Source: Caldisericum exile AZM16c01 (GTDB lineage Bacteria; Caldisericota; Caldisericia; Caldisericales; Caldisericaceae). Taken from it: 64,000 bases of DNA. Below the pieces are notes generated by a model, which saw only the letters and a list, made by a program, of their open reading frames with translations, was not told where the DNA came from and made no database searches. Location: NCBI RefSeq assembly GCF_000284335.1, contig NC_017096.1, forward strand, positions 1 through 64,000, read 5' to 3'. This document shows, one piece after another, positions 44,361 to 62,775 of the stretch. The stretch's first letter is position 1. Each line of letters starts with the position of its first letter. The translations under genes and the position numbers were made by a program.

Positions 44361-44446
44361 AGATAGTAATTAGTCATCGTATATAATAGTGTAGGTAGTG
44401 AGAATGAGGAGCATATTCTTTAACAGTGCATCGTAAGTATTGTTAG

Positions 44447-44614: not shown

Positions 44615-44648
44615 AAAATAACTATTACCATTATAGGAGGTTGGATAG

Positions 44649-46067: not shown

Positions 46068-46140
46068 TAACTACTATATGGAAAACAATTTTCTAAAAAC
46101 TTTCAAAATTCTCATGAAAAGGTATTGACTTAACACGGTA

Positions 46141-46290
46141 CATTTCGAACGTAGTGAGAAATCTCCTTAGTTCAATCTGAGGGGGCAAAAACCCCCTCAG
46201 CGCTCCCCCCCAAGAAAATCTTTTTGTCCTTTCAGGGGGAGTTAGAGGGGGAGGTTCGTAAGTCCCCCTCTAATATAGGTATTTTGCTCC
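46141..46290. repeat. Dispersed repeat right of IS110 copy 1 (block R7)
   Basis: Begins with the target sequence CATTTCGAACG and continues AGTGAGAAATCTCC, then CCCCCTCAG and GGGGGAGTTAGAGGGGG modules. The same series with many differences follows IS110 copy 2, so the two insertions are in two diverged copies of the same repeat. Confidence 0.82.
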
Positions 46291-46373
46291 TGCAGCTACT
46301 ACATTTATATTCTCTCTTGTCAAGAGGTTTTTAAAAGGATTTACAAAATATTTTTTAATTTTTTCTTCGTATA

Positions 46374-46402
46374 TTAGATACAAAAACTCTCAAAAAAGTT
46401 CC
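46374..46402 (-). promoter_or_regulatory. Degenerate ECF-type promoter
   Basis: On the minus strand GGAACT (46402-46397), 17 bp, ATCTAA (46379-46374). The spacer TTTTTGAGAGTTTTTGT is close to the well-formed copies, but the -10 lacks GTCTTA. It points into IS110 copy 1, with no related gene beyond it. Confidence 0.5.
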
Positions 46403-46440
46403 AGAATTTCGAGAAGAATTTTCAAAAAAGTTTTTTCCAC

Positions 46441-47357
46441 ACAATCAGCTTATAATTTCTGAGGAAAGCATACGATAACTCTTTTTACTCTATACAAATT
46501 CTTATACATGCTTTTTTGGATTTTGCTTATGCTAAATTTCTCAAACTCCAATCTCCATTTTTTGCTGTCAAGTGTTTTTCGATTTACCCTTCTCATTCAA
46601 CATTTCTCATTTCTTATTCAACATTTATAATCCAACATCTCTCATCCAGCATCCTACATTCATACTACATCACCTTCCTCATCACAAGCAATATACAAAC
46701 TAAAATCTCTATTTTTCATTTTCTTTCTGCTCATCAAAATTTTCTGCCTCTATATATAAGATGCAAAGCTTGCAAAAAAGTTCCATCATTTTTCAAAATA
46801 TTTCCTTGAATTTTATACTATGCGATTGAGAAGCAAAGAAGTTCAGTAAATTTATAAGAAGTTTAAAAAATTTTCATCGCATCGATATGTTGTGACGAAG
46901 TAAGCTCGATATCTCATTTATATCCTTTCTAGGCAAACAAAATATACTATCCTCAATCCAAAAATTTACCTGAAATTATTTCAGAGTGAAGCGGTCTTTC
47001 TGAGGAGCACTTTTTAGGACGAAAAACCTCTATTTTGTCATACCGAACTTGTTTTAGCATCTCTGTTATAGTAACATACAAATCAAAAACCGAGACTCTT
47101 CGCAAATACAGCTCAGAGTGACAAAAAAGTTGTCTTTCTGAACGAAGTGAAGAATATCCTATTTGTCTTTTACTTTTCTGGAGGAATATTCAAAATTCAT
47201 AGTGCATAAAAACAGGAGCTTTTCGTCATGCGGAAATGGAGGAGCTCCTGATATTATTCGTTGCTAAATTTTTCAGATACTTTTAAATTATTTTTAAAAG
47301 CCGCAGGCATAGGACCTATGTTCATATAAGAGAATTGCCTAATTCTTCGAGGTTCCT
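46441..47357. other. Gene-free decayed region
   Basis: About 900 bp without a supportable gene. It contains a pyrimidine-rich stretch with loosely repeated TTCTCATTCAACATTT-like units (46590-46660), a degenerate ECF-type promoter at 46757-46784, and a GTCTTTCTGAACGAAGTG repeat-family unit near 47130. A 97-residue frame at 46516 is low-complexity and not convincing. Confidence 0.55.
46757..46784 (-). promoter_or_regulatory. Degenerate ECF-type promoter
   Basis: Minus strand GGAACT (46784-46779), 16 bp, ATCTTA (46762-46757), followed by TATATAG. It resembles the well-formed ECF promoters of the island but has no gene downstream. Confidence 0.45.
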
Positions 47358-48545
47358 TTACTCTTCAACGAACCTTCTAACAAGGAAGTCGACAACCATA
47401 AACCAGCTATCTTTTTCCATCCTTTTTGTACTGAGCAAGTTGTTTATCAATTTTATTTAGCTCTTTTACGCTATTATTCCAGCTGCTGATAATTTCTTCT
47501 GCAGAAACGTCACGCGCTTTTTTATCTGGATAATTTATTATATCCGGATATTCCATCCAATCTTTTCAAAGTGCCGCAACTATTTAAGACATTTGATGTT
47601 TCACAGGGGTAATCGAATAAAAGTTATCGTTTTCTGATTTTTCTGCGTCTTCATAGTTTCCAGTAGAATATTCGTAAATTTTCTTGCCCCACGTTTTGCT
47701 TTTTATTCTGGAAGACACTGCTTGCCTTTCTTTTTCTGCTCTTTCCTTGAGAGAATTGCCCTTTTATCTTTTGAAGAATAGTGCCTTCTCTTTACTGAGT
47801 CAACAATTATTTTTCTGTAATCAATACTATTCTTTGCCATCTGTGTATCTGAAAGTGCCACACTCAGACTTCTTTCAATTTGCAGCTTTGTATTGTTCTC
47901 TCTAAATTTCCCTCCGGTTAAACTTCTATAATATGACAGTTTTTCCTCTACCTGCTTAAACAGATTACCATTAATATCTTCAATCCCATTCACTACATAT
48001 GAGAGGTTTAACCAGCTTTCAAAATCTATTTCGTTATTATTTTCGTAATCTAAATTTTTTGCTCAAATTTTTCTAATTCAGACTAGCATGTATTGTAATT
48101 ATTCAGGGCTTCGGCGCATAAATCAGCCGATTTGTTATCAGGTAAATTAAACGGCAGAATACAGTACCCCTCAACCAAAATTTCTTTTGCATATTGCCAC
48201 GTTTTACTCCAGTCGTTTTTTGATACAGCATCTTTCATTTCTTGTGCGAGTATTTCTAAGTTACTGTGCTGATTGGTTAGATTTGAAGGCTTTTCGCCAC
48301 TGTCTATTCTTTTAGTAAGATTCAGCGCCTGTGCGAATTCACTTTTAGCCTCTTTTATTATTTCGCTGTTGTTTTCTGCAGGAAAAGCTTCAAATGCTTT
48401 GCGAATAAAATTAAAATCTGGGAACTGTGAGCTATATTTTTTTTATGGTTTCTGCAATTTCTGTCTCGACATTACTTTTAGAAATAATGTAGCCTGACAG
48501 CACTAATACTAAAATTAGAATTAAACTTAATGTACGAAAATACAT
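47358..48545 (-). pseudogene. Multiply frameshifted gene for an exported protein
   Basis: The minus strand starts with a signal-like segment MYFRTLSLILILVLVLSGYI. After one frame break (an A7 run near 48442) it continues as KYSSQFPDFNFIRKAFEAFP, DWSKTWQYAKEILVEGYCI and ADLCAEALNNYNTC. Later pieces in other frames include KQVEEKLSYYRSLTGGKF and ARDVSAEEIISSWNNSVKEL, ending near EKDSWFMVVDFLVRRFVEE. At least four breaks and several stops make it non-functional. It lies 44 bp after the 48590 gene and was probably the third gene of that ECF-type operon. The family is not recognised. Confidence 0.65.
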
Positions 48546-48589
48546 TTTACAATTATCACAAAAAATGTGCTTCATAAATTATCTACCAA

Positions 48590-49153
48590 TCAGTTGATTT
48601 CAATGTTCAGATTTTTTGGAACCTCTACGTTTACAATAGGCCAGCCTGGACGTGAGATAATCGAACTTTTACGTTCTGGGTCCTCTTTCCATTCTGGATT
48701 TTTAACCCATCTATGTGCTCGTATTTTGAGGGTAATGTTCCTTATTACTACTTCTGGGTTCATATCTTTCGAGCTTTCAACTACAATATTAAAGTATATA
48801 CGTTTTTCTCTGAAAGGCCCTGCTTTCTCATAATGCGGTATTGAAGGTTCAACAGCAATTATACTAAAGCCGCCTCTTAGTGGTTTGGAAATTATTTCTT
48901 CAAATTGAAAAGAAAAAGGCAAATGTGGCTGAATGGACACTATATATGAAATCTGGAGATACTTTTTCTGAGGATTAAAGTTCCATTCAGCATCTTTTAA
49001 CCAATAATTAAGTGCCTCAGTATCGTTATTTAAATTGTGCACCTTCACGCTTTCAACCTTAGCAGTACAGGGGGAAATGTACAATATAATTATTAAAGAA
49101 AAAAGGGCGATAATAGTAATAAAAATAGGAAATTTTCTGCTCATTTTAATCAC
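48590..49153 (-). CDS. Exported protein of unknown function
   Basis: The 187-residue protein has an N-terminal membrane/signal segment (FPIFITIIALFSLIIILYIS) and a strand-rich mature part (LQISYIVSIQPHLPFSFQFE; KRIYFNIVVESSKDMNPEVV). I do not recognise the family. The start is either GTG 49153 or ATG 49144; AAAGGA lies just upstream of both. It follows the Amidase_6-type gene by 11 bp and is likely cotranscribed. Confidence 0.65.
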   Translation of the reverse strand: MIKMSRKFPIFITIIALFSLIIILYISPCTAKVESVKVHNLNNDTEALNYWLKDAEWNFNPQKKYLQISYIVSIQPHLPFSFQFEEIISKPLRGGFSIIAVEPSIPHYEKAGPFREKRIYFNIVVESSKDMNPEVVIRNITLKIRAHRWVKNPEWKEDPERKSSIISRPGWPIVNVEVPKNLNIEIN

Positions 49154-49164
49154 AATCCTTTACT

Positions 49165-50061
49165 TTAGTGGAAATGCAAAAGAAAAAAGTGGTCAATAGT
49201 ATTTCTGTTAATTATTTCTTGTAGGGAACTGTCGACACAATCATATCCATTAGGACCAGAATGATAAGTTAAGTATATTTCTCCATTTTCCTTTTTGGTC
49301 ACAATTGTTGAATGCCATTTACTACCACCAGTTTCAAGTTGGATAACGTCTCCTGGAACAGCGGAAGCCCTCAGAGAATTAGCCTGACTTATTGCAAATA
49401 CCGTAGGGAATGCATTATTCTTATATTGACTTTGATATGTATAGAAATCTCCTACAACAGACCAAGAAGTAGACCATGCCCATCTTGATTGCAAACACCA
49501 CCACTGTGCCTTATTTACATACCATTTTGTGAAAGTTGAATAACTTGAACAAGTCCCACTTCCATCAATTGGAACATTCCCTGCGTTTACCACTTGACTT
49601 GCAAAATTAGTACAATCTCCCCCCTTGTTTCTAAAATCAGGAAAATTTGGATTTTGACCGTATCCGGCGTTTATAGAATACTTATAAGCGTAATTCACTG
49701 CAGAAGATGAATTATATACCCATGTAGTACTTTGAGTGTTATGAGTTTCAATAACATCATTTAGACAACTTTTACATTGTTCTGGATAAAGGATCTCTGG
49801 ATGTGCATAATAATAAGCAGCGTATTTCAATATTTTTCTGAAATAAGTGGATTTTTGCAGATCTTTATTATACTCACCCCATAGCAAGTTATTTAAAAAA
49901 TCGAAATACTCAGAGGTGCCTTCCTTTAGATTGAATCCTTTTAAGTTAATGTAATTTACAATTTCCTGCTTACCCATAGTATAATCATCCGCTGAGACAT
50001 TAAAAAACATTGAACTTAATACCATTGCCACAATTACTAAAACAATAATTATTTTTTTCAC
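49165..50061 (-). CDS. Secreted Amidase_6-type (papain-like) protein
   Basis: The 298-residue protein has a signal peptide (MKKIIIVLVIVAMVLSSMFF, cleavage near VSA-D). Its C-terminal half matches the putative amidase domain: AVNYAYKYS then GGDCTNFASQVVNAG with likely nucleophile Cys150, and a candidate His250 in KWHSTIVT. Such domains are papain-like hydrolases of peptides or cell-wall bonds; the substrate is unknown. GTG start with GGGAG upstream. An ECF-type promoter faces it from 51259-51287 but is separated by a nested transposon remnant. Confidence 0.82.
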   Translation of the reverse strand: MKKIIIVLVIVAMVLSSMFFNVSADDYTMGKQEIVNYINLKGFNLKEGTSEYFDFLNNLLWGEYNKDLQKSTYFRKILKYAAYYYAHPEILYPEQCKSCLNDVIETHNTQSTTWVYNSSSAVNYAYKYSINAGYGQNPNFPDFRNKGGDCTNFASQVVNAGNVPIDGSGTCSSYSTFTKWYVNKAQWWCLQSRWAWSTSWSVVGDFYTYQSQYKNNAFPTVFAISQANSLRASAVPGDVIQLETGGSKWHSTIVTKKENGEIYLTYHSGPNGYDCVDSSLQEIINRNTIDHFFLLHFH

Positions 50062-50308
50062 GCTTTTCTCCCTTATAATTTTATCCTAAATTGAGCGATT
50101 TTTTTATCACTCTAAAAAATTTTAGTGCTTTTTTGAAAAATTTAAAGTTTTTAAGCATATTTTTTCTACTTTCACATTTTACTCTGATTTAGATGATTCA
50201 AACACATGGTAATCTAAGCAATTTTGATGTGTTTTATGTATTTTAAGAATAGTTACCCTGCCCCTAATGTTTTGGGAGGAAAATTTGAGAAATTGATTAT
50301 ACCTGTCT

Positions 50309-50975
50309 CTATGCAATAGTAGGTGGATTATTACATCTTTCCCAAAGTAATGGGATGTTCAGTCTTTCATAGATATACTGAGAGACTTTGAGAATGATTC
50401 TTCTTCCTGTGTGGATAATCTTATTTGCATTGTCGATGAGCATTCTCCTAAATGTTGTGGGATAACTTCTTACGTCAATGATACCCTTTGCTACATCTCT
50501 TTTGAATGACTCGTAGAGAAAGAATGACAAGACTACTGAATAATAGAATGCTCCCCGGAAGAAATCTCTTGAAAGGCATCTCTTCTGTCCCAAACTCTTT
50601 CAATGCCCTGTTAATAAGTTCATCATTACCTCTATTGTGGTATGATTCTATGATTGTTTCTCCCATGAAGTATTCTTCTTTTTCTGCTTTAATGAAGATA
50701 TCATTAAGTTCTTCGTCAATACCAAGGTTCGTATAGATTATCCTCTCGCTATCTTCTCTTGCAAATGGAAGCACTGTTTCTCCTCTATCGTTTATGAAAG
50801 GCTTGAGGTAGATAGCACGCCTTCCTTTATCCCAACTTTTTCTTTTGTCTATGAAGTCTACAAACTCCCATATATTTTCTTTTCCAAGGTAACAAAGGTA
50901 CCTTGCAAACAGTGCAAGACCTGCTCTATCTGATAGTGTATCTGATGTTTTCTCAATACTGTCTATCCATTAATC
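50309..50975 (-). pseudogene. Truncated DDE transposase, IS1380-like
   Basis: Minus-strand frames read IEKTSDTLSDRAGLALFARY, then after an internal deletion RGETVLPFAREDSERIIY, ETIIESYHNRGNDELINRAL and KEFGTEEMPFKRFLPG, and after a frame shift FYYSVVLSFFLYESFKRDV... to the end. The E..HNRGNDE stretch resembles the C-terminal acidic motif of IS1380/IS4-type enzymes. The catalytic middle is missing. Confidence 0.65.
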
Positions 50976-51111
50976 CTTTGTTTCGTTACTCTTTTCCTAC
51001 GAATATCTCATACGTGTTCTTCTGTTGCTTGCATTTTTTATCATTTTTGTCTTACTTCTTTGTATTCGCTACTCCTTTCCTGCGAATATCATAATATCAC
51101 CTCAGTAGTAT

Positions 51112-51154
51112 GATAGTGCCTTATCACCCACTAAGTGAAGGCACTATCTTTTTT
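51112..51154. terminator. Long hairpin at the edge of the nested IS remnant
   Basis: Eleven-pair stem GATAGTGCCTT/AAGGCACTATC (51112-51122 with 51138-51148) followed by TTTTTT on the plus strand. It may be a terminator or part of the IS1380-like element's end. Confidence 0.6.
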
Positions 51155-51258
51155 AATATGTGCTTAAATTATACATTAAATCTATGTTTTACCAAAGAAA
51201 AATACAGGGAGAATTTGGAGAATCGCTCAGATTAGGCATAAATTTCTCCTCTCATATA

Positions 51259-51287
51259 TAAGACTTTCAAACTGCCAAAAAAGTTCC
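51259..51287 (-). promoter_or_regulatory. ECF-type promoter (operon 50061)
   Basis: Minus strand GGAACT (51287-51282), 17 bp, GTCTTA (51264-51259), then TATATGAGAGGAG. It is nearly identical to the copies at 55455 and 59005. It would have driven the Amidase_6-type operon before element E1 inserted. Confidence 0.75.
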
Positions 51288-51367
51288 ACATTTTTGAAAG
51301 AATTTTTCTATTTTTTTCTTAAGAGGGTGCCTTTAAGCACTCTCAAACTAATTACTTAAATAAATCT

Positions 51368-51943
51368 TTATTTTATAGGGTTTTCGAAGATTATCTGAAC
51401 CTTGGCTTCAGGGAGAAGCATTTTTGTTAAATCAGAATATTCATGGTAGCAATAGATAAATTTATTAATCTCAAAATTTTCAGGTAGTTCAAAAATAACC
51501 CATCCTGAAGCTACTTTTCCTTCTAATTTTCCCATTCCAATTACAGATGGATGGTCTTCTCCAAAAAGGGAAACTATTTCAGGTGGAGAAAGACTAAGTT
51601 GATAGATTTCTCTTCTACCAATTTTTCCTTCCAGATAAATTCCGCACGTATTGTACGAATCTAGCGAATCCCAACCAACATAACTTCCAAAGCGTCCTCC
51701 TGTTCTGTCCTTGCTTCCATCTAACAGCACCTCAAATGCGATGTATTTTTTTGTCCCTGGTTCTTTTTCTTTAATAGGTGGGTAAACTCTTTTATAATCT
51801 AACACAGTTATGTAAATTCCTGTGAATCCAAGTTGTGCTCTTTCATTCATATCAATAGTTTTAGTTCCTCTACCCGCAAGATTGCAAAAAGGAGTTATAA
51901 TTGTTCTTAGAATTAAGAGTATAATAATTATTGCTTTATTCAT
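51368..51943 (-). CDS. Exported DUF4352-like protein
   Basis: The 191-residue protein starts MNKAIIIILLILRTIITPFC, a signal or lipoprotein-type N-terminus. The mature part is a strand-rich domain (GFTGIYITVLDYKRV... KYIAFEVLLDGS... LEGKVASGWVIFELPENFE), the pattern of DUF4352 immunoglobulin-like domains. The role is unknown. Its ATG overlaps the stop of the preceding (frameshifted) gene, so it is the third gene of the 53198 operon. Confidence 0.7.
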   Translation of the reverse strand: MNKAIIIILLILRTIITPFCNLAGRGTKTIDMNERAQLGFTGIYITVLDYKRVYPPIKEKEPGTKKYIAFEVLLDGSKDRTGGRFGSYVGWDSLDSYNTCGIYLEGKIGRREIYQLSLSPPEIVSLFGEDHPSVIGMGKLEGKVASGWVIFELPENFEINKFIYCYHEYSDLTKMLLPEAKVQIIFENPIK

Positions 51944-52574
51944 AATCTAAGGTCTCCAATAAATTATTCTTCTCAAGTTCTGCAAACACATTTGGTGCAT
52001 ATCCATCCCACGAGTTTGTTTTCTCATGTTTTGGATTCTTTACAAAGTGAGTGTCGGCAGAAGGGTCAACTAAAAAAAGCTAATTTATCATTTCTTAGTT
52101 TTTGCATGTCCTTATTTTGGATATTTCCGACAATAGCAATAAATCCTTTGAATTCTGCATTGTTTCTTTGTAACATATCTAAGAGCAGGTTTTTGTCATA
52201 AAGCATTCCGTTCTCGGGAGAAACAAAGAAAGTTCCATTAAGATTTGTTTCTTTTTCAATACTTTTCCCTCTATTGCAAGTACTTCAATATAATATTCCT
52301 TAACAAGTTTTTCAAGTTCCTCCTCGCTTACATATTTCGAGAATATGATCGTCACAAAATATTTTTCAAAAGGAGATTTCTCGGTTTTTACCTTATCAAG
52401 AGCTTTATCTATCTTATTCTTATAATTGAGGAGGGAATCCTTACTTAAAGAAAATTCTTTTGCAATAGAAAACATATCAAAGAAAGGTTTATCCTGTGAG
52501 TATGCTTTCAGGAAGCCAAATGCCCCCAAGGTAATGGATTCTAATATTACTCCAATGATTATTAATTTTCTCAT
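51936..52574 (-). pseudogene. Exported protein gene with two compensating homopolymer frameshifts
   Basis: Starts MRKLIIIGVILESITLGAFG (signal-like) and runs about 100 residues to EVLAIEG. An A4 run near 52270 appears one base short; the next frame continues KSIEKETNLNGTFFVSPENG, LLLDMLQRNNAEFKGFIAIV and MQKLRNDKLAFF. A T7 run near 52079 appears one base long; the original frame resumes as VDPSADTHFVKNPKHEKTNS and ends NNLLETLDYE. The joined protein would be about 212 residues. Because every segment keeps protein-like sequence, the breaks are recent, switchable, or sequencing errors. Family not recognised. Confidence 0.7.
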
Positions 52575-52631
52575 ATTAACCTCCTAATACCAGGGATAAT
52601 CCCGACTTTTATGTTCCTTGGACATCCCTGG

Positions 52632-53198
52632 CTATGTATCGTATTCGCTACCAGCCCATGAACTCATCTGAGAGTTAAATGTGAAAGTCGTTTTTGGGCT
52701 TTTAAAATATACTCTAAACCGAGAGTCAAAGCGATAATCCGTATTAGCTAACATCGAAAGTGGGCTAAGACAGGTAACTTCAGTTTCATCATAATAACCA
52801 TTTCCTCCTGATTCTTCTGGGTCATCGTCTCTATCAAAGTGAGGAGAGGGAAGTGTAGAGTAATACATCGTAGTATTAAGAGCGGAGACAGTTGTATTGT
52901 ATGGAAAAGTAGAAATATCGAAAGTATAGTATAGGGGTGGAAAATGCCACCAATAATAATTTTTTATTGTATCAATAGCGTCTTGCGTAAATCTAAATCT
53001 TGCCTGTGGTGAGACATATAAATTATACTCGCTATCGTTATACTCATACATTACAGTTCTCCCCCAATCAGGTGAGTATGTACCAACTTGCTCTCCCCAG
53101 TCTTCTGTGGGGCTACATTGATCAGCAAAGACTTTGCTACAAAAAGATAGACTTAGAAGGACAATGAAAACAGCAATTAAAATTATGATTTTCTTCAT
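52632..53198 (-). CDS. Secreted protein of unknown function
   Basis: The 188-residue protein has a signal peptide (MKKIIILIAVFIVLLSLSFC, likely cleavage after VFA). The mature part is rich in Tyr, Ser, Thr and Asp (YYWWHFPPLYYTFDISTFPY; PHFDRDDDPEESGGNGYYDE). No family recognised. The ATG follows a weak AGG. It is the first gene of a three-gene operon whose ECF-type promoter (55455-55483) is now separated from it by IS110 copy 2. Confidence 0.7.
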   Translation of the reverse strand: MKKIIILIAVFIVLLSLSFCSKVFADQCSPTEDWGEQVGTYSPDWGRTVMYEYNDSEYNLYVSPQARFRFTQDAIDTIKNYYWWHFPPLYYTFDISTFPYNTTVSALNTTMYYSTLPSPHFDRDDDPEESGGNGYYDETEVTCLSPLSMLANTDYRFDSRFRVYFKSPKTTFTFNSQMSSWAGSEYDT

Positions 53199-53284
53199 CT
53201 TAACCTGCTTATTAAAATTTTACTCAAACTTTTCTTAAAATTCCATCTCTTTTTCCTTTCACTTTTCGTCTCTTTTTGCCTATC

Positions 53285-53316
53285 TCTCATCTCCTTTACC
53301 TCGGAGCCTTGCCCTC
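53285..53316 (-). promoter_or_regulatory. Conserved leader motif (first of two)
   Basis: On the minus strand the sequence GAGGGCAAGGCTCCG followed by AGG, a short A-rich gap and GGAGATGAGA recurs with few changes at 58848-58880, in the leader of another ECF-type operon. An ATG inside it sits directly on the GGAG, so it is probably not a translation start. Function unknown. Confidence 0.55.
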
Positions 53317-53442
53317 AATTTGAGGGGTTGAACTGCACCCCTCAATACTCCCCAAAAAGTAATAATTAGTCATCGTATATAATAGTGTAGGTAGTGAGAA
53401 TGAGGAGCATATTCTTTAACAGTGCATCGTAAGTATTGTTAG

Positions 53443-53610
53443 AGGTATGTGGGGAAGTGATGATTTTTATCCGGTCATTGGTTTATTAAAACCGTTCGAA
53501 ATGTTAAAACCACTTCCCCTTTTCCTCAAGAACCTGCACTTGGTACATTAGGCACATTAGCCTGTATTTACGATGATAGGTCAAGAGGAAAACTCAATAA
53601 TCACATACCT
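53443..53610 (+). ncRNA. Candidate IS110 bridge RNA, copy 2
   Basis: Identical to the copy-1 RNA: outer stem 53443-53451 with 53602-53610, target hairpin 53451-53519, donor hairpin 53520-53592. Its target guide (53493-53503) is complementary to this copy's own right flank CATTTCGAACG at 55137-55147. Confidence 0.8.
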
Positions 53611-53644
53611 AAAATAACTATTACCATTATAGGAGGTTGGATAG

Positions 53645-55063
53645 ATGGAGTCAATACTTGCTATTGGTATTGATGTTTCAAAAGAGAAACTCGATGTGTC
53701 TTTCTTTGATGGCAAAAAGAGAAAGAGTCGTGTCTTCTCAAACAAAGATGAAGGTATTGAAGATCTAATAAAAGAAATTGAAAAGAGAATTAAAAAGGAG
53801 TTTGAATTAGAGAAGAAATTAGAAGAAACGAAAAAAGGTACAAAGAAAAGCAAAAAGAAAAATGATACTAATACCAATACTAATAGTATTACTAATAGTA
53901 CTACCAATAGTATTGCTAATACTACCACTACTGATAATACTCCTACTATTACCGAAGTTCATATCCTCTTTGAATCAACTGGTTCATACCATGCAAGACT
54001 TGCACTTCAGTTGCTTAAGTGGAAAAGAGGAATTGGAGAACATAAAGCAAATGAAGATAGATTATACAATATACCCATCTTCATCTATGTCATTAATCCA
54101 TTGGTAATAAGAAAGTATACTGAAGAATCCCTTGATAGAGCATCAACAGATAAAATTGCATCAGAGACAATCTGTCAGTATGTGTATGAGGCAGTTTCAA
54201 GCAATAGATCAAACATATCCTCAAGACAGTATGAGACTCTTAGGTCATTTTTGTTAGATTCCTCATATGAAGATAAACTTGAGATAAAGATACTCATTAA
54301 AACCCTTGAAGGACTCAAAAGAACAAGGACAAGAATACTCAATGAGATAGAGGCATTAGAGCAATATCCAGATTCATATGCTCATGATGCAATAGAGAGT
54401 CTAAAGAGAGTATTAATTGAATTAGAGAAAGAGATAAAAGAGATAGAAAAGAAGATAGACAATGTAATTAAAAACAAGGAGAAATACAGAGAACTATTCA
54501 TAAGACTCACAGGTATACCAGGTATAGGTAAAAGAACTGCCTCTGCTATCATTGCATACTTTGGCACATTTGATTCATTTAACGATGCAAAGGAGGTTTC
54601 CTCATATGTAGGACTTACACCATCAATAAAGGAATCTGGCAAGAGTGTAAAAAGAGCATCATACAACATATCAAAGATGGGAAATCCATATCTAAGACAA
54701 TTACTCTACATGGCATCTCTATCTGCATCAAGATACAATACTCAGTGCAAATTGCTATACAATAGACTCCTCACTAAGGGAAAGGAGAAGAAACTCATAC
54801 ATATTGCAGTTGCAAATAAACTCATAAGACAGGCATTCTCAATTGTGAAGCTCAATAAGTCATATGATCCAATATATGGATTAGATGAGGATATGGGAAA
54901 AGAGATCCTTAAGGAACATGAAAGAATAAAAGAAAAGAAAGCATTAATGAAAATTCTAAAACAACAGAAAGAGAAGAAGGAAAAGATCAATACCACCATC
55001 AATAACATACCTATACCATTAGATAACACATTAAACCACTATCCAAATATTGCAGAATACTGA
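53645..55063 (+). CDS. IS110-family transposase (DEDD recombinase), copy 2
   Basis: Amino-acid sequence identical to copy 1 (472 residues); the only DNA difference is AGT to AGC in a serine codon at 54200-54202. Intact, so the element is probably active or was very recently. See copy 1 for domains. Confidence 0.95.
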   Translation: MESILAIGIDVSKEKLDVSFFDGKKRKSRVFSNKDEGIEDLIKEIEKRIKKEFELEKKLEETKKGTKKSKKKNDTNTNTNSITNSTTNSIANTTTTDNTPTITEVHILFESTGSYHARLALQLLKWKRGIGEHKANEDRLYNIPIFIYVINPLVIRKYTEESLDRASTDKIASETICQYVYEAVSSNRSNISSRQYETLRSFLLDSSYEDKLEIKILIKTLEGLKRTRTRILNEIEALEQYPDSYAHDAIESLKRVLIELEKEIKEIEKKIDNVIKNKEKYRELFIRLTGIPGIGKRTASAIIAYFGTFDSFNDAKEVSSYVGLTPSIKESGKSVKRASYNISKMGNPYLRQLLYMASLSASRYNTQCKLLYNRLLTKGKEKKLIHIAVANKLIRQAFSIVKLNKSYDPIYGLDEDMGKEILKEHERIKEKKALMKILKQQKEKKEKINTTINNIPIPLDNTLNHYPNIAEY

Positions 55064-55136
55064 TAACTACTATATGGAAAACAATTTTCTAAAAACTTTC
55101 AAAATTCTCATGAAAAGGTATTGACTTAACACGGTA

Positions 55137-55290
55137 CATTTCGAACGAAGTGAGAAATCTCCTTAGTTCAATCTGATGGGGAAACTTACCACCTCAACAC
55201 TCCCCCAAAATTAAAAATTCTTTTGTCCTTTCAGGGGGAGTTAGAGGGGAAGATTTACTTGTCCCCTCTAATATAGGTATTTCATTCCTG
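55137..55290. repeat. Dispersed repeat right of IS110 copy 2 (block R8)
   Basis: Begins with CATTTCGAACG and AGTGAGAAATCTCC, followed by GGGGGAGTTAGAGGGG-type modules. It aligns with the repeat right of copy 1 but is clearly diverged, unlike the IS copies themselves. The stretch 55291-55454 to the ECF-type promoter has no gene. Confidence 0.8.
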
Positions 55291-55454
55291 CATTCACTCA
55301 AGAAATATTGAAACTATTTCTCTTGAGTTCTCACTTTTAAATCTATAATTTTTCCTTCACTTTATTTTGTCATCTCTCTCTTGTCAATACATTTTTAAGA
55401 GATTTTTGGAAATTCATTTTTTTTCACTTTAAGCAAAAATCCTTCCTCATATAA

Positions 55455-55483
55455 TAAGACTTTCAAACTCTCAAAAAAGTTCC
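55455..55483 (-). promoter_or_regulatory. ECF-type promoter (operon 53198)
   Basis: Minus strand GGAACT (55483-55478), 17 bp, GTCTTA (55460-55455), then TTATATGAGG. The 35 bases around it are the same as at 59005-59033. It faces IS110 copy 2 and, beyond it, the operon starting at 53198. Confidence 0.78.
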
Positions 55484-55671
55484 ATAATTTTTAGGGAATT
55501 TTCAAGAAACTTTTCTAACTTACCAAATTTCAAAGTGTTTTTTAGACTCCTTCTTCTTGCAAGATTTTGTGTTTTAAGTTTTCTCATGAAATTAAAGGAG
55601 CAACTAGTGGAAGGAAAACCTCCCACTAGTTATGAAACATGCGAACTACATGAGAGAATTATGTGAATTAC

Positions 55672-57462
55672 TTATTCTTTGTCCTCGATTTTAAAGATAC
55701 CGCCTCCAAGGACACCTATGTAAACAATGTTGTTTTTTGTATCAATTGCAAGAGAAGAAACCGAAAGATGTAAATCATTATCAAGGGTAATTCTTTCCCA
55801 GGATTTTCCTGAATCTTTGGACCTAAATAGCCCGTTGAAGAAAGTTCCTGCATATATTATTCCTGTAGTAGGACTAATTACAATAGCACTTATACGATAT
55901 CCATCCAGACTTATCTTTTTCCAGTTTTTTCCACCATCGTTACTTCTATATATCCCCTGTTTAGCAGATTCTTCAGGTGAAAGTGGTTCTATGTATCCTG
56001 TTCCTGTTATTCCAAGATAAGCCAGGTTATGGTTATGCGGATCAATTGCAATTGCAGAACCATGAATTCGTTTAGAGTGTTGGATAATGTCCATCTCTTG
56101 CCATGTTTTTCCACCATCAGTAGATTTTAAGAACTCGGTTGTCCAATAAATTGTGTTAGGATCATCTGGGCTAACAAGGACTTTACTATTGAAACAACTA
56201 TTTCCATCTGTTACTTCCCAATAATCCTCCTTGAAGTTTGTAATTTGAGACCAATGCAACCCCTTGTCCTCAGACCTAAAAAGTCCATTATAGGTGTCTG
56301 CATAAATTACGCCTTCCCCTCCTATTGAAATGGAGTGAATGCCGTTTTTATCAATATCAAGATCGGATAATTTCCAGCTTTTCCCGTTGTCCAACGATAC
56401 ATAAAGTAGTTTTCGTGAAGGTGGAGTCGTTTTTGTAATTACGATCTTTATACGGATATCGGGATGAAGAGGGTTAAAATAAAAGTCACCAACTTTTTCC
56501 CATGTTTTACCATAATCGGATGACTTAAAGCTAGCGAAAGAATTGTTAAAACCAGTGAAAGAATTGTAGTAGCTGTAAGAGACAGCGTATAGAGAATTTG
56601 GATTTTTAGGCTCAATATATATATAAGAAGTATTCAGACTGTCTCCAATAGGATAGTATTCATAATCCCCTTTCCCTTCAACTCTTTTAAAAAGACCATT
56701 TAGACCGAAGACATAGAAAATATTTGGATTTTTTTTGTCAACAGCTAAAGTAAAGCTTGGACAAGCTAATGGAGGCAAAGAAGTGCGTTTCCATGTTTTT
56801 CCAGAATCAAGCGATGAATATATTGCACCAGTCCACCTGTTCACATCTCCAAAACGAACACTATAAGCAACTGGTAAATCATTTATATTTGTGTTGAGGC
56901 TATTCCAGTACATCCTAAAAATATCATTTTCGTCTTTTTGAAGGTCTTTCTTCCAGGTGATGCCACCATCAGAAGAAAATAACAATCCAGCACCATGTTC
57001 TGATATCCAAATTTTTCTAGAACATTCCGGATCGATATAAATTCCATCAATTGTCAGAGGTCCATAGCGAAGATTTTCTAAAGATAGGAGAATACTCCAA
57101 TGTTTTCCACTGTCTTCAGACTTCCACAGGCTAGTTTTAGCATTTCCTATTACCTGAACCTTAGAAGAGGAGTCAACTTTTTGTGGCGGATATGTGGCTG
57201 CATACAAAATATTGCTATCTTTGGGGTCTATTGCAAAAGCGGTAACAATACCATCATTAATCCTCTCCCAGTGAGAAATCTCCCAGGGCACAAATTGTTC
57301 TTTTTCACTATTCTTAATTTCAACCTCCTGGTTTGGTATTTCACTCTGAGGATTATTTTGTGGCAGGATTCCTTCTGTCCTACTGCATCCAGCATAAACT
57401 GATAAAATAAGTATAACAAATATTGATACCATTAACTTTTTTCTTAGCATAATTTTTTTCAT
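55672..57462 (-). CDS. Lipoprotein with Asp-box (BNR) beta-propeller
   Basis: The 596-residue protein has a lipoprotein signal (lipobox VYAGC, Cys26). The mature part carries about nine Asp-box units of the form SxDxGxxW (SEDSGKHW, SSDGGITW, SLDSGKTW, SSDYGKTW, SLDNGKSW, SEDKGLHW, STDGGKTW, SNDGGKNW, SKDSGKSW), typical of sialidase- or sortilin-like propellers. No catalytic residues of a sialidase could be identified, so a binding or scaffold role is equally likely. It follows the Amidase_6-type gene with no gap and shares its ECF-type promoter. Confidence 0.85.
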   Translation of the reverse strand: MKKIMLRKKLMVSIFVILILSVYAGCSRTEGILPQNNPQSEIPNQEVEIKNSEKEQFVPWEISHWERINDGIVTAFAIDPKDSNILYAATYPPQKVDSSSKVQVIGNAKTSLWKSEDSGKHWSILLSLENLRYGPLTIDGIYIDPECSRKIWISEHGAGLLFSSDGGITWKKDLQKDENDIFRMYWNSLNTNINDLPVAYSVRFGDVNRWTGAIYSSLDSGKTWKRTSLPPLACPSFTLAVDKKNPNIFYVFGLNGLFKRVEGKGDYEYYPIGDSLNTSYIYIEPKNPNSLYAVSYSYYNSFTGFNNSFASFKSSDYGKTWEKVGDFYFNPLHPDIRIKIVITKTTPPSRKLLYVSLDNGKSWKLSDLDIDKNGIHSISIGGEGVIYADTYNGLFRSEDKGLHWSQITNFKEDYWEVTDGNSCFNSKVLVSPDDPNTIYWTTEFLKSTDGGKTWQEMDIIQHSKRIHGSAIAIDPHNHNLAYLGITGTGYIEPLSPEESAKQGIYRSNDGGKNWKKISLDGYRISAIVISPTTGIIYAGTFFNGLFRSKDSGKSWERITLDNDLHLSVSSLAIDTKNNIVYIGVLGGGIFKIEDKE

Positions 57463-58755
57463 TTATTTTGGTGTCCCAGGTTGTGAAGCATAACAATATG
57501 TAACATAATGATGGACGGTATAGAAATCCATATTTGTATTATTGAAATAACTTCCTTCGCTATAAAAAAGGTGTTGATGATTATTAGTATGTGCACTTAA
57601 TGCACGATTTATAGTGTCATTTTGTACAATCATAGCAACATGTCCCGGGGAATCACTGGAATTCGTCCACATCATTACGGATCCTGCATTAGCCCAGTAC
57701 AGATCTGAGTCCGCCCAATAACCATTGTAATACATATAGTTTCTTAAGCCCCAATTATTGTTTTCCTTAACTGCTGTTGTCCATATCCAGGGAGCATAAT
57801 CTGGAGGAAGGTTTGAGGAATCGTACCACCAATGTTCTACATCATGTGTGGTACTCATTGGGATTCCTCCAGCAAACATTGCCTGTGAAACAAAATTTGC
57901 GCAATCACTTCCGTTGAAAGGTGGATTTTGATAGGCTACATAGTTAGCAAGATTATAGTTGTCAGTATCAAAATTACCATGATCATTGGTGTAACGATCA
58001 GCATAGTTAGCAGCATAATTATTGTAGTCGCCATAAACACCATGAGCAGGATCTGGAGGATTGTTAGGATCGCATCTCCGATATTCATCTACTGTGTAAC
58101 AATATTGAGAAGTTTGAGAAAAAGCAGCATCCTTAGCTTTATCTGCAATTTCTTTTGCATGGTTAAATCCCTCTTCCTCCATTTCATCTGCAGTTGGAAC
58201 CAAACTGTATATCTTATAAAAATCGCCCATAGAGTTATCTGCAAAGAAGTTTACCGTATCTAAAAGAATACTTCCAGCCTCTGAAAGGTCTGCTACAACT
58301 TTAAAATCAATATTTAAAGTTTCGGTTTTACCAATGTAGCCCTTTAATTCAGTAATCCAACTCGTTAGTTCCTTATTTACCGCATTATTCTGACTTGGAG
58401 ACAATTCTCCCTTTTTTAAATCCCTAAATCTTTCCATTCCTCTTATTGCTGGCAACTCCTCTGGGGTTATTGCTTTTAATACCTCACTTACAGTTACAGT
58501 AAATGTTCCCTCTATCTTACTATCTTTGATTTCTACCTTAACAGGAGTCGTGGCAATGGAAATATTCTTATAGTACTGTGCCTCGTTCTTAATAATCCAT
58601 GTTCTCAATATTTCAGAGAGTTCGTCTGTGGATACAGTCGTATTTATTGAGGAATCTTTAACAGATAGAGTGTTCTTAGAGTATCCTTTTGGGATCAATG
58701 CAAATGTTGTTAGCAAGAATAATACAACTAAACATACTAATAAACCTTTCTTCAT
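57463..58755 (-). CDS. Secreted Amidase_6-type (papain-like) protein
   Basis: The 430-residue protein has a signal peptide (MKKGLLVCLVVLFLLTTFAL), a helical N-terminal region (about 40-215), and a C-terminal amidase domain. The latter has YNNYAANYADRYTNDHG, NGSDCANFVSQAMFAGGIPM with likely nucleophile Cys285, and His372 in SPGHVAMIVQ. Domain architecture resembles exported putative amidases of Firmicutes. Shine-Dalgarno GGAGG precedes the ATG. The leader of about 245 bp from the ECF-type promoter (59005) contains the conserved motif at 58848-58880. Confidence 0.83.
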   Translation of the reverse strand: MKKGLLVCLVVLFLLTTFALIPKGYSKNTLSVKDSSINTTVSTDELSEILRTWIIKNEAQYYKNISIATTPVKVEIKDSKIEGTFTVTVSEVLKAITPEELPAIRGMERFRDLKKGELSPSQNNAVNKELTSWITELKGYIGKTETLNIDFKVVADLSEAGSILLDTVNFFADNSMGDFYKIYSLVPTADEMEEEGFNHAKEIADKAKDAAFSQTSQYCYTVDEYRRCDPNNPPDPAHGVYGDYNNYAANYADRYTNDHGNFDTDNYNLANYVAYQNPPFNGSDCANFVSQAMFAGGIPMSTTHDVEHWWYDSSNLPPDYAPWIWTTAVKENNNWGLRNYMYYNGYWADSDLYWANAGSVMMWTNSSDSPGHVAMIVQNDTINRALSAHTNNHQHLFYSEGSYFNNTNMDFYTVHHYVTYCYASQPGTPK

Positions 58756-58847
58756 TTTAACCTCCTTGGTTAAATTTTATTTTAATTTCTCTTTTCTTAA
58801 AATTTGTTTTCTTTTTACTCCCTTTTCATCTTCTGTTATTCTTTTTC

Positions 58848-58880
58848 TCATCTCCCTTATTCCCCGGAGCCTTGCCCTCG
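58848..58880 (-). promoter_or_regulatory. Conserved leader motif (second of two)
   Basis: Minus strand GAGGGCAAGGCTCCG then GGGG, an A-rich gap and GGAGATGAGA; matches the motif at 53285-53316. It lies about 95 bp before the start codon of the 58755 gene. Confidence 0.55.
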
Positions 58881-59004
58881 TTTCAAAGCATCACCTCCAA
58901 TCCCGAGGGAGATTTCGCTTCTGTTTTTACTTCGTTTTGTTCTCCAGCTTGTCAATATCTTTTAGGGCAAAATTCTTTCTTCCCGAAATTTTCTCCTCAT
59001 ATAA

Positions 59005-59033
59005 TAAGACTTTCAAACTCTCAAAAAAGTTCC
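59005..59033 (-). promoter_or_regulatory. ECF-type promoter (operon 58755)
   Basis: Minus strand GGAACT (59033-59028), 17 bp, GTCTTA (59010-59005), then TTATATGAGG. GGAAC-type -35 and GTC-type -10 boxes are hallmarks of extracytoplasmic-function sigma factors. This is the best-placed copy, with an intact operon downstream. Confidence 0.8.
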
Positions 59034-59307
59034 ATAATTTTTAGGGAATTTTTAAGAAACTTTCTCTTCTCTTAGAATGGAACTCAAAAGGGCGACGGAT
59101 TACAGGAAAGCAAACCCAATGAAAAAGCTGTGGATTCACCTTCTTGAGTCTTTACTATTTCTAAGAGGATTCCAAAGATAAAATATTTGAATAAAGCGCA
59201 GATTACAAAAAGTAAAAAATCGGATTGGATTAGTGCTCTTTTTTGATAAGCTCTTTCAGGAAATTTCAATAGATGTGTCTCCAAATCATAGGAATGGTTA
59301 TATGCAT

Positions 59308-60009
59308 TTATGGCTGAATTTTTCCTTTTTCAATGTCTACGATAAATTTCGCTGTCATTAAAGGAGGGTACAAGCCAGGTTGTGAGTCTGGGTGGAAGTT
59401 TTGGGGGGTATATGCAAGGAGTACTTCAATTAACTTTTTGCCTGAGTTAGGGAACATTAAACCTTTAATAGATACAACTTCATTTTTACTAATATCCTGG
59501 GGAGAGGCACCTTCGCTTGCAACAAAGTATTTTGCTTCTTTGCTGTTTCTTACGATTTCAATTGCCTTTTCCTTTTCCTCATTAGAAGGCTCATATTCAA
59601 TGGGTTTAGAAACTTCGATATTTCCACTTAATACGTTTACTGTAACCTCTTTATAATTGTAAATGACAATCCCTACTCCATCCTTAACAATGATATCTTT
59701 AAGTGCAACTTTATACTGAAGCTTATTCTCTATAATCTTTGCAGTGGCTAATTTAACAAAATATGGTTTGGTGTATACAAACGAAAGGATAAAGAGCAAT
59801 AAAACGAATATTCCAATGCCATAGGCAAGTCTTACTCGTAAGTGATGACTTCTTTCTCTTTCACGGGCAACATTGTCGAACTCTCCTTGCAAATATTGTT
59901 CAAATTCATTTTTATATCTTTCTATTTCTTCGTCTATCAGTTCTGGAGGCTTAACGCTTTTAAGCATTTTCTCCATTTTTTCTATTTCTTTGTTATTTTT
60001 GTTTCTCAT
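59308..60009 (-). CDS. Putative membrane-anchored anti-sigma factor
   Basis: The protein has a highly charged cytosolic N-terminal region (about 1-62), one membrane helix (YGIGIFVLLLFILSFVY), and an extracytoplasmic strand-rich domain of about 150 residues. Encoded directly after an ECF sigma gene, this architecture is typical of anti-sigma factors, though no zinc-type HxxxCxxC motif is seen. The frame opens at 60021, but that ATG lies 3 bases after the ECF -10 box. ATG 60009, with GGTGAG just upstream, is the likelier start (about 233 residues). Family not recognised by sequence. Confidence 0.75.
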   Translation of the reverse strand: MRNKNNKEIEKMEKMLKSVKPPELIDEEIERYKNEFEQYLQGEFDNVARERERSHHLRVRLAYGIGIFVLLLFILSFVYTKPYFVKLATAKIIENKLQYKVALKDIIVKDGVGIVIYNYKEVTVNVLSGNIEVSKPIEYEPSNEEKEKAIEIVRNSKEAKYFVASEGASPQDISKNEVVSIKGLMFPNSGKKLIEVLLAYTPQNFHPDSQPGLYPPLMTAKFIVDIEKGKIQP

Positions 60010-60024
60010 ATTTCTCACCATATA

Positions 60025-60054
60025 TAAGACTTAAGTTTTTCAAAATTTATACCC
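60025..60054 (-). promoter_or_regulatory. ECF-type promoter inside the end of the sigma gene
   Basis: Minus strand GGGTAT (60054-60049), 18 bp, GTCTTA (60030-60025), then TATATGGTGAG. It would drive the anti-sigma gene separately, giving negative feedback. The -35 differs from the GGAACT class but the -10 block is the same. Confidence 0.65.
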
Positions 60055-60573
60055 ATCATTTTCGATTTTTTTCTTCAAATTGCTTAAAGCCCTGTAGTAT
60101 ACTTTTCTTACCGAACTCTCTCGATAGTTTAATATCAATGCTACATCCTTGAGACTCCTGTGCTCAAAGAACACAAGCGTTAAAACTGTCTGCTCAACTA
60201 CTGGTAATATTTTAATGTACTTATAAATAACTTCGTAATCAATGTCATCTGAGGGTGAAATACTCGTATTTTCGGAATGAGTGCCTTTGTACTTACTTAT
60301 GAATTTGTTTTCTTTGATTTCTTTCTTGTAATGCTCATTTATTACATTCGTTGCAATCCTCAAGAGCCAGAAAATAAAAGGGCTACGTCCTTTGTATGAA
60401 CCTATGTACTTAAGCGCTTTGAGAAACGTCTCCTGAGTAAGATCCTTTGATAGTTCCTTATCAACTGTCCTTTTGTAGATGTAGCCAAACACCTCTTTAT
60501 AGTAAATATCTACAATTTTCCCAAAAGCCTCTCTGTCTGTGAGAGCTTTTTTGACAAGTTCTCTTTCGTCCAT
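60040..60573 (-). CDS. ECF-type RNA polymerase sigma factor
   Basis: The 177-residue protein has sigma region 2 (YYKEVFGYIYKRTVDKELSK, DLTQETFLKALKYI, FIFWLLRIATNVINEHYKKE) and region 4 with a helix-turn-helix (LPVVEQTVLTLVFFEHRSLK, DVALILNYRESSVRKVYYRA), with no region 3 or 1.1, as in ECF sigma factors. It probably recognises the GGAACT/GTCTTA promoters of this island. A TATAAT (60590-60585) lies 11 bases before its ATG, without a good -35. The putative anti-sigma gene follows at once. Confidence 0.92.
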   Translation of the reverse strand: MDERELVKKALTDREAFGKIVDIYYKEVFGYIYKRTVDKELSKDLTQETFLKALKYIGSYKGRSPFIFWLLRIATNVINEHYKKEIKENKFISKYKGTHSENTSISPSDDIDYEVIYKYIKILPVVEQTVLTLVFFEHRSLKDVALILNYRESSVRKVYYRALSNLKKKIENDGYKF

Positions 60574-60644
60574 ATTTTGTTTTCATTATACCATTAAACA
60601 GAACAGGAATACATTTAACGAATTTAATTTACAGAATTAAGATT

Positions 60645-60680
60645 ACTGCAAGGTTCTCATACAATAGGGAGCCTTGCAGT
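60645..60680. other. Hairpin between the lipoprotein and sigma genes
   Basis: Nine-pair stem ACTGCAAGG/CCTTGCAGT (60645-60653 with 60672-60680) with an 18-base loop and no T tract. It could be an RNA processing or partial termination site limiting read-through from the lipoprotein gene into the sigma gene. Confidence 0.5.
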
Positions 60681-60720
60681 AAATTAAGGGAGACATCAAT
60701 TAAAAATTTTTGCACAGATA

Positions 60721-61398
60721 TTACTGAGCCCAAAGACTGATCATGCCTTGATATGAAGAGATATTAGCGCTATTATCCTCTGGATTAATAACCCATGCAT
60801 AGAAAGACTTGGAAGCATCTACATTAAATCCTGTTGAGCCAGAGCCACCTATTAGCCTATGTGCAGTTATTGTAGACGAACCAGTATACTGTATGCCAAC
60901 ATCAATTGGCTCATTGGAAGGATTCCAGGTTAAAGAAAAAGAGACATAAATGTATCCTGAATACGGACCAAATCTGTTACCATAGCCTGGCTGAAGGTTT
61001 GCTCCACTTATAGGTACATCAATATGCCAAACATCGGGTTTTACAATAGGATGGGAAACCTTTTCAAATTTCACACTGAAAGATTCATTAGGGCTTTTCC
61101 TTTCAGATTCTGCTTTCTTCATTGCTTCCATATCTATTCCTACAACATAAGCATAAGGCAACCTATTAGGAGAGTTAGTAAATTCCTCAAATTCTTTTAC
61201 ATCAACCAATTGGTAAATAACTATGTTGGATAAATTCCTGATATCTTCTTCAAATGAAGTAAACTCAGGCACTTCAACAAGTTTAAGGTTTTCATCCGCA
61301 ATCTTTACGTTTCTTACAGAAGTGGAATCTGTCGCTTTTGCAAGACCAACACAACCTGCGATGATGATTACTAACGCAACCAAAATTAATTTCTTCAT
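60721..61398 (-). CDS. Lipoprotein of unknown function
   Basis: The 225-residue protein starts MKKLILVALVIIIAGC, with a good lipobox (Cys16). The mature part has a helical N-terminal half (FEEDIRNLSNIVIYQLVDVK) and a strand-rich C-terminal half ending SYQGMISLWAQ. Family not recognised. An ECF-type promoter (61440-61469) lies about 40 bases before its start, the shortest leader of the set, so it is a likely direct target of the adjacent sigma factor. Confidence 0.72.
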   Translation of the reverse strand: MKKLILVALVIIIAGCVGLAKATDSTSVRNVKIADENLKLVEVPEFTSFEEDIRNLSNIVIYQLVDVKEFEEFTNSPNRLPYAYVVGIDMEAMKKAESERKSPNESFSVKFEKVSHPIVKPDVWHIDVPISGANLQPGYGNRFGPYSGYIYVSFSLTWNPSNEPIDVGIQYTGSSTITAHRLIGGSGSTGFNVDASKSFYAWVINPEDNSANISSYQGMISLWAQ

Positions 61399-61439
61399 TT
61401 AACACCATCTCCTTTCTGAGAATTTTTCTTCTCATATAA

Positions 61440-61469
61440 TAAGACCTGAGATTTTGAAATTTTGTACCC
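61440..61469 (-). promoter_or_regulatory. ECF-type promoter (lipoprotein 61398)
   Basis: Minus strand GGGTAC (61469-61464), 18 bp, GTCTTA (61445-61440), then TTATATGAGAAG. Same class as the promoter at 60025-60054. Confidence 0.7.
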
Positions 61470-61524: not shown

Positions 61525-62775
61525 CTAATCTGAGCGATTCTCCAAATTTTTCTCGTGTTTCCCTTGGATAAAACATAGATTCAATGTAGAACCTGCTGGG
61601 GAAGAACGCAGGTGAACAAGTTACGATACATATGAGACTCCTATCTTAGAAAAAGGAGAGTGAAATATGTTAAAAAGAAAAACTGTTACCTCTGTATAAT
61701 GAAACTATAGAAAGATTAATAAGAGCTTCCAAGTTCTCTAAAAGTGATGAAGCCCAATTTAGGTTAAAAGTTGTTGAGTTCTCAAAGAAGCATGGTATAA
61801 GACTTGCCGTAGAAGTCTTCAAGTATCAAGAGCAACCATATTTAGGTGGAGGAGGTGTTTAAGAGAATCAGAGGGTAAACTTGATAGTCTCATTCCTAAA
61901 TCAAGAAGACCTAAGAAACTACGGAAGATGAAAATAAGCCCTGAGATTATATCCTTCATAAGAGAGATAAGAGTAGCATCCAAGAATGGGAAAAGAAAAG
62001 TTGAAGAAATTCATTGATGATTACTGTGGTAAAAGATGAATGAAGTCTATCTCAATATCAACAATAAGGAAGGTTATCAAAAGGTATAACCTCATAGAAT
62101 ATCCAAAGGGATTAAACTACCATAATCCTCAAAGTGGATTTGCAAAGAAAAAGAAAAATTACAAACTAAAGGTAAAGCCTTATCCTAAACCAAAAGAATT
62201 AGGATACATAGAGATAGACACAATCGTCAGGTTTGTAGAAGGAATAAAGAGATACATCCTCAATGCAGTTGACATATCCTCTAAGTTTCAATTTGCATAT
62301 GAGTTTAAATCATAAAACGGCAGAAACACATTAATCTTCTTTAAGAAACTTGAAACTGTTTATTTAATAAAGGATAGCATAAAGGTAGTTCAAAGAGATT
62401 TTGGTTCTGAGTTCTTAGGAGAGTTTGATGAATATCTCAAGAAGAAAAATATCAAACACAACTTCATTTATCCAAGATGTCCAAGAATAAATGGATTCAT
62501 AGAAAGAGCAAACAGAACATTACAGGAAGAATTCATAGACTTAAATCTCTTACTTCTTCCTGATAACATCAATGAATTCAATAAGAGACTTATTGACTAC
62601 CTCATATGGTACAATACTCAAAGACCACATAAGAGCTTAAACAATTTGACACCAATTGATTATGTGTTAAAATATTCTGTAGAGTCTCAAATGTATGTGA
62701 CTCATACAAAAACTTGCAATTTTTTCAAAAAAGTACTAAAACTTTTATGATGATAAAAAAATCGCTTAATTTAGG
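61525..62775 (+). mobile_element. Transposon E2 with decayed rve transposase
   Basis: Ends are CCTAATCTGAGCGATT at 61525 and the inverted CCTAAATTAAGCGATT ending at 62775. The element is 1251 bp and encloses a transposase pseudogene on the plus strand. Its ends match those of E1. It separates the island's ECF promoters from the peptidase-like gene at 62803. No target-site duplication was found. Confidence 0.72.
61667..62750 (+). pseudogene. rve-type (DDE integrase-core) transposase, frameshifted
   Basis: After the start codon the frame breaks within 10 codons. Other frames then give an N-terminal helix-turn-helix region (FSKKHGIRLAVEVFKVSRAT), the DDE core (ELGYIEIDTIVRFVEGIKRY; VVQRDFGSEFLGEFDEYLKK; CPRINGFIERANRTLQEEFI) and a typical end (WYNTQRPHKSLNNLTPIDYV). 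At least three frame breaks or stops are present. Confidence 0.8.

Follow-up and report, generated by a model that had tools for sequence, protein, structure and literature searches.

A probable family-wide ECF sigma regulon of exported proteins in the Caldisericaceae, with a predicted promoter at the sigma/anti-sigma junction

Extracytoplasmic function (ECF), or group IV, sigma factors carry only the sigma2 and sigma4 domains in about 160-200 aa, and in class I systems a membrane anti-sigma factor, with an N-terminal helical domain on the cytoplasmic face of a single membrane helix, holds the sigma factor until an envelope signal arrives. In E. coli, rseA may have an internal sigmaE promoter in front of it. 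The E. coli sigma gene rpoE is subject to positive autoregulation through an upstream promoter, an arrangement that is usual for ECF sigma factors although no longer defining (PMC8103513). For Tt-RpoE1/Tt-TolB of the thermophile Thermoanaerobacter tengcongensis, the promoter tGTTAC-N16-CGTC is that of the autoregulated sigma gene itself, and the sigmaE -35 box GGAACTT and the GTC of the -10 are known ECF determinants (PMC3397946). Here we describe ECF-type promoters, with their candidate sigma and anti-sigma genes, on the minus strand at positions 46374-61469 of the window, by which we mean bases 1-64000 of the single-contig Caldisericum exile AZM16c01 genome (1,558,103 bases).

The genome encodes at least two relevant ECF sigma factors, a 177-aa protein in the window (clade A; 60040-60573, minus strand) and a 174-aa RpoE-like protein at C1:1312095-1312616 (clade B). 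As in E. coli sigmaE (RpoE)-RseA, the -35 box is GGAACTT, a putative membrane anti-sigma gene adjoins the sigma gene and the predicted regulon comprises envelope proteins; unlike in that system, an element stands at the sigma/anti-sigma junction with none before the clade B sigma gene, and the target proteins are others. Tt-RpoE1 is alike in being a thermophile ECF sigma factor with a downstream anti-sigma factor and GTC as -10 determinant, but its described promoter precedes the sigma gene. SigW/RsiW-type class I systems share the order of a sigma gene and then a single-span anti-sigma gene, but have another promoter and upstream autoregulation.

We consider it very likely that ECF-sigma promoters found throughout the family drive exported proteins and that, in both clades, a cognate promoter at the junction drives the anti-sigma gene, giving negative feedback. 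ECF sigma factors, GGAAC promoters and envelope regulons are already known. We found no paper on ECF regulation in Caldisericum in the open-access literature and no description there of a junction-promoter design; as far as found in open-access text, the new elements are the family-wide regulon, the conserved promoter at the sigma gene's 3′ end that is fixed to the start of a predicted leaderless anti-sigma mRNA, and the matching promoter dialect. This would be the first regulon in a little-studied family, and its promoter code could be read for much of the secreted proteome. The textbook ECF design is apparently reversed, with the anti-sigma gene rather than the sigma gene under the sigma factor's own promoter and the start codon at the predicted transcription start.

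Five exact promoters listed by the first-pass annotation were recovered at their minus-strand coordinates: GGAACT-N17-GTCTTA at 51259-51287, 55455-55483 and 59005-59033, and GGGTAY-N18-GTCTTA at 60025-60054 (GGGTAT) and 61440-61469 (GGGTAC). The chance expectation from shuffling was 0.06 sites for the GGAACT form and 0.04 for the GGGTAY form, and no shuffle reached the observed number. A sequence-only profile, whose matches include its training sites, gave E-values of 1.6e-18 for 51259 (the best match in the genome), 2.6e-17 for 59005, 9.7e-17 for 55455 and 8.4e-9 for 61440. Two further minus-strand sites, 46374-46402 and 46757-46785, had been labeled degenerate, a label that their strong profile scores contradict (54.4 and 46.3 bits, both sites having belonged to the training set). 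They seem degenerate because the -10 is GTATCTAA in the first and CATCTTA, an intermediate class, in the second, instead of GTCTTA. Site 46374 carries the clade B -10, and a second promoter class describes these sites better than degeneracy does.

The annotation was also right that the repeated sequence extends well beyond the -35 and -10: 55444-55513 and 58994-59063 are 99% identical over 70 nt, and the promoter copies 55455 and 59005 are probably recent duplicates. The length of the repeat is explained by a full promoter plus an upstream element. In the site alignment, an upstream block AAAAATTCTTTCAAAA is followed by GGAACTTTTTTG and then by a -10 trailed by TATATGAG; at 59005, the A/T block (TTTCTTAAAAATTCCCTAAAAATTAT) occupies 59034-59059 on the minus strand, upstream of the -35. 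The 56 remote sites that we anchored on GGAACTTTT plus a -10, some of which also trained the profile, read AAAATTCTTTCAAAATTAY directly upstream of GGAAC. UP elements are A/T blocks at about -57 to -38 that are contacted by the C-terminal domain of the RNA polymerase alpha subunit, and the A/T block here resembles one in sequence and position; the AAAATTCTTTCAAAATTAY block is similar to the UP-element consensus that Estrem reportedly described in 1998. All elements have an UP-like A/T block, a -35 of the GGAACTT type and a -10 built on GTC or ATC, and the spacing from the hexamer to TCTNA is 17 or 18 in nearly all sites with both boxes found. A scan of 44-64 kb against Rfam returned no RNA family.

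Separately, we observed tandem arrays in which three elements follow one another at intervals of about 55-75 nt (L128:3060-3256, L129:3871-4057 and 9058-9236, L119:5398-5606). Such arrays often mix -35 and -10 classes (GGAACT, GTAACA and GGAACAAAT; -10 GATATT), suggesting that several ECF sigma factors converge on one gene.

The annotation had proposed a self-contained regulon, which the genome-wide distribution does not bear out: about 20 sites below E 0.02, of which 15 are below 1e-7, are dispersed over the genome. A scan with GGAACTN{15,19}GTCTTA returned five matches, comprising the three in the window, one of the same kind at 73130 and one unrelated. By profile, elements occur in 17 of 18 family genomes, G009 alone having none at E<=0.01. 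Exact patterns outnumbered reversed-pattern controls (28 vs 2, 41 vs 6 and 77 vs 4 matches), and 91 of 101 sites are intergenic. A search of the wider class yielded only scattered matches outside the family, most near E 1e-3, placing the concentration of elements within the family. One strong match lies in a genome of another family in the same class (G037:C79:3953-4020, E 3e-10).

These elements are tied to exported and envelope proteins, as had been suggested for the window. With tandem copies merged, a gene lies within 700 nt of 62 elements. Of these genes, 49 look exported, showing a signal-like N-terminus and no more than two membrane segments, compared to 57/290 in element-free loci (Fisher 9e-19). 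Among the exceptions are several sigma or anti-sigma genes, transposases and gene remnants. Amidase_6 is above all the recurrent target family; Asp-box propellers recur as well, as do weak matches to SurA-like proteins. SpoIID, SIMPL and a polysaccharide deacetylase occur as single cases. In an independent test that started from Amidase_6, an element lies upstream of about 15 of the 22 such genes in the family by manual count; several of the others are at contig ends.

Within the window, the annotation had each intact promoter heading a block of exported proteins, which does not hold at 60025: this promoter overlaps the sigma stop codon and would drive the anti-sigma gene. The annotation located it correctly but listed it merely as one promoter among others, passing over the junction position that is of main interest here. 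The corresponding element is clearest in clade B, where all 17 systems have a [GA]GAACTTTTT...TCTA element that runs up to the start codon of the anti-sigma gene. With the C of TC taken as -10, following Tt-RpoE1 (PMC3397946), the anti-sigma ATG coincides with the predicted +1 in 16/17. Across these systems the sigma stop ranges from 4 nt inside the ATG to 151 nt before it (-4 to +151 nt). In G006, which has the 151-nt distance, the motif nonetheless keeps its fixed place at the ATG. That the motif stays with the ATG while the stop moves indicates constraint on a promoter plus start codon, not on the sigma C-terminus.

The usual ECF trait, positive autoregulation from an upstream promoter, was seen neither for clade B nor for the window sigma factor: the 17 clade B loci have no comparable element before the sigma gene, and none was found close to the sigma gene start in the window. 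As an exception, an element also precedes the clade A sigma gene in G010 C79, making upstream autoregulation likely in at least one clade A system. Three of the four clade A junctions read GTCTTATATAT at the -10 and the other reads GTCTATATATATG; at the same junction as 60025, G006 and G010 read GTCTTATATAT or GTCTATATAT. A ribosome-binding site precedes the anti-sigma ATG in G006 and G010 C79, and the clade A mRNA is probably not leaderless there. Extended to all 49 ECF genes, the junction test is weaker (8/49 vs 19/548 other genes, p 8e-4); the reasons are that the element is missing from other ECF clades, that weak junction sites escape the profile and that background loci were picked for elements.

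Could the junction motif be real but no promoter, acting as a regulator site or reflecting translational coupling, with the anti-sigma factor made only from the sigma mRNA? The sigma stop overlaps the anti-sigma ATG (TGATG) in several genomes, as in coupled genes, and the weak -35 boxes at clade A junctions point the same way. We regard this as unlikely, given that the clade B motif matches the remote elements in both boxes, in spacing and in dialect and that the G006 motif remains at the ATG despite the 151-nt gap from the sigma stop.

The preferred reading, in which the junction carries a promoter, draws further on the match between sigma factors and dialects. The window sigma gene was confirmed by Sigma70_r2 (2.4e-11) and Sigma70_r4 (2.2e-6); Sigma70_r2 and Sigma70_r4/r4_2 are its only Pfam domains. 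In a tree of 48 ECF proteins, clade A comprises the window sigma factor, one from G006 and two from G010 (support 100/99), and clade B the protein at C1:1312095-1312616 with its orthologues (support 99/95). Clade B, which scores best to RpoE (TIGR02939), below the family cut-off, occurs in 17/18 family genomes; it was not found in G009, which is also the only family genome without an element at E<=0.01. These sigma genes have, at and around them, GGAACT with GTCTTA, GTCTAA or TATCTA at 17-18 nt spacing, which these sigma factors would read.

The annotation had assumed one sigma factor, and the second gene, with GTATCTA at its own 3′ end, argues otherwise. The GTATCTA class is frequent only in the genus of the source genome, whose clade B junction also reads GTATCTA; in sister genera, remote sites and the clade B junction both read GTCTAA/T, and G005 reads TTATCTAA. 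Remote sites divide 30:2 between TATCTA and GTCTAW in this genus and 2:65 in genera with a GTCTAA junction. The annotation's choice of the neighboring sigma factor as reader is likely for the GTCTTA class: GGAACT...GTCTTA sites are found in the genomes with a clade A sigma factor (G000, G006, G010 and G011) and are absent from the congeners G001-G004, which lack it. If instead the window sigma factor read all classes, the other -10 forms would be tolerated or decayed variants; the common -35 and UP block of both classes, and the spacer start that 46374 shares with 55455 and 59005, are compatible with this. The GTATCTA class is present in G001-G004, however, where the window sigma factor was not found and where GTATCTA is the -10 at the clade B junction, and its sites score high by profile and so do not look decayed. 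We judge a single reader to be quite unlikely. That the elements are mobile or repetitive DNA (miniature inverted-repeat transposable elements or insertion sequence (IS) ends) with a chance likeness to promoters is very improbable: near-identical 70-nt copies, tandem copies and insertion sequences near several copies speak for it, but element orientation matches the downstream gene in 80/88 cases, the distance between the boxes is constant whereas the intervening sequence varies, and placement is the same at orthologous sigma genes in 17 genomes.

We return to two sigma factors, with clade A predicted to read GTCTTA and clade B to read GTATCTA in this genus and GTCTAA/T in most sister genera. 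The sigma genes would be transcribed from another promoter, which for the window sigma gene may be the TGGTATAAT extended -10 just upstream. The membrane anti-sigma factor would hold the sigma factor until an envelope signal frees it. Free sigma factor would then drive the exported proteins, mostly cell-envelope amidases, beta-propeller lipoproteins and several unassigned families, together with its own anti-sigma factor, whose clade B mRNA is predicted to be leaderless. Because the sigma factor would drive its anti-sigma factor and not itself, the expected outcome is homeostatic negative feedback. We also lean towards a broader statement for the family, namely that the sigma gene carries at its 3′ end a cognate promoter for a leaderless anti-sigma mRNA and not for itself, so that the sigma factor is inherited with a copy of its promoter and the regulon dialect shifts in step. 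Since each sigma gene would come with an example of its own promoter, the junction sequence could reveal the specificity of ECF sigma factors that have yet to be studied.

The anti-sigma candidate in the window (59308-60021, minus strand) follows the sigma gene and has, as previously annotated, a single hydrophobic helix; its N-terminus is predicted to be cytoplasmic and its C-terminal part to be exported. It is 62-66% identical to proteins in G006 and G010 beside the sigma orthologue. It has no family match and a low-confidence N-terminus in the AlphaFold2 (AF2) model, leaving position as the basis for its candidacy, and a fold search gave no confident match (weak cystatin/PepSY-like similarity at residues 139-237, VIA Z 4-6). 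The clade B partner has about 65 residues and then one helix in 17/17, and matches NF047528 at 5e-6, far below the cut-off. Foldseek of this partner returned nothing under E 0.001; on realignment, its model N-terminus fits E. coli RseA best (Z 5.5; MucA Z 4.5), Z values that can arise by chance. The clade A partner homologue in G010 C59 matches SurA_N_3 at 2.8e-5, slightly below the cut-off, and a SurA-like domain would suit sensing of misfolded exported proteins. An anti-sigma homologue with a SurA-like domain lies at L040:2875-4161, directly after a clade A sigma gene.

Several points weigh against our interpretation. The anti-sigma identity is weakly indicated, by position and by weak matches below curated cut-offs. 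The -35 at clade A junctions is weak (GGGTAT, GGTACT, GATATT and GTGTCA), making the junction promoter less certain for clade A than for clade B. The clade A match is imperfect, as GGAACT...GTCTTA sites occur in G012 (8) and G007 (2), where no clade A gene was found (completeness 75% and 99%). Export was called by a simple rule on hydrophobicity, and targets that are paralogs do not count as independent. Finally, the dialect may have switched only once in evolution, so that the Fisher value overstates independence.

The window target genes all lie on the minus strand. Promoter 61440 precedes an exported lipoprotein candidate with an IAGC lipobox (60721-61398). About 250 nt downstream of 59005 is an exported Amidase_6 protein (57463-58755; 3.2e-12), and the next gene in this block encodes an Asp-box/sortilin-type beta-propeller lipoprotein (55672-57462). 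Promoter 55455 is cut off from the exported gene 52632-53198 by an IS110-family insertion on the plus strand (53324-55184; limits set by comparing two copies), identified through the other copy (44649-46067), which encodes an identical protein with matches to Transposase_20 and DEDD_Tnp_IS110. About 1.2 kb of open reading frame remnants without an identified family part promoter 51259 from the exported amidase 49165-50061 (Amidase_6). Insertions appear to have broken the promoter-gene pairing in the window. Homologous loci support the pairing, as homologues of these genes lie about 160-370 nt behind elements with nothing between: a 70% homologue of 52632-53198 in G010 (about 280 nt), a 76% identical homologue of the exported protein 51368-51943 in G006 (about 300 nt downstream of an element recognized by visual inspection, GAAACTTTTTT...GTCTATATATATG) and an 83% identical homologue of the amidase in G004, directly after three tandem elements. 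Many unassigned exported families, such as 52632-53198 and 51368-51943, would become tied to one response.

Further observations concern the surroundings of the elements. The two IS110-family copies, 44328-46188 and 53324-55184, are 99% identical. Insertions recur between an ECF promoter and its exported gene, another case being a DDE transposase (C1:494835-496505) behind promoter C1:496772. A 91-aa transposase-like fragment without a Pfam match is present in identical form at 62040-62315 and C1:69751-70026, near ECF promoters. Elements of identical score and sequence, each with an apparently identical 426-aa exported gene, occur twice in opposite orientation (C1:132967, plus; C1:1010807, minus; loci L103/L104). 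Several promoters are followed, after about 80-100 nt, by a near-palindrome, CTCTTGACAAGAG or TTGACAAGAGAGA (at 46311-46323, at 55375-55390 and in the leader of the C1:496763 promoter).

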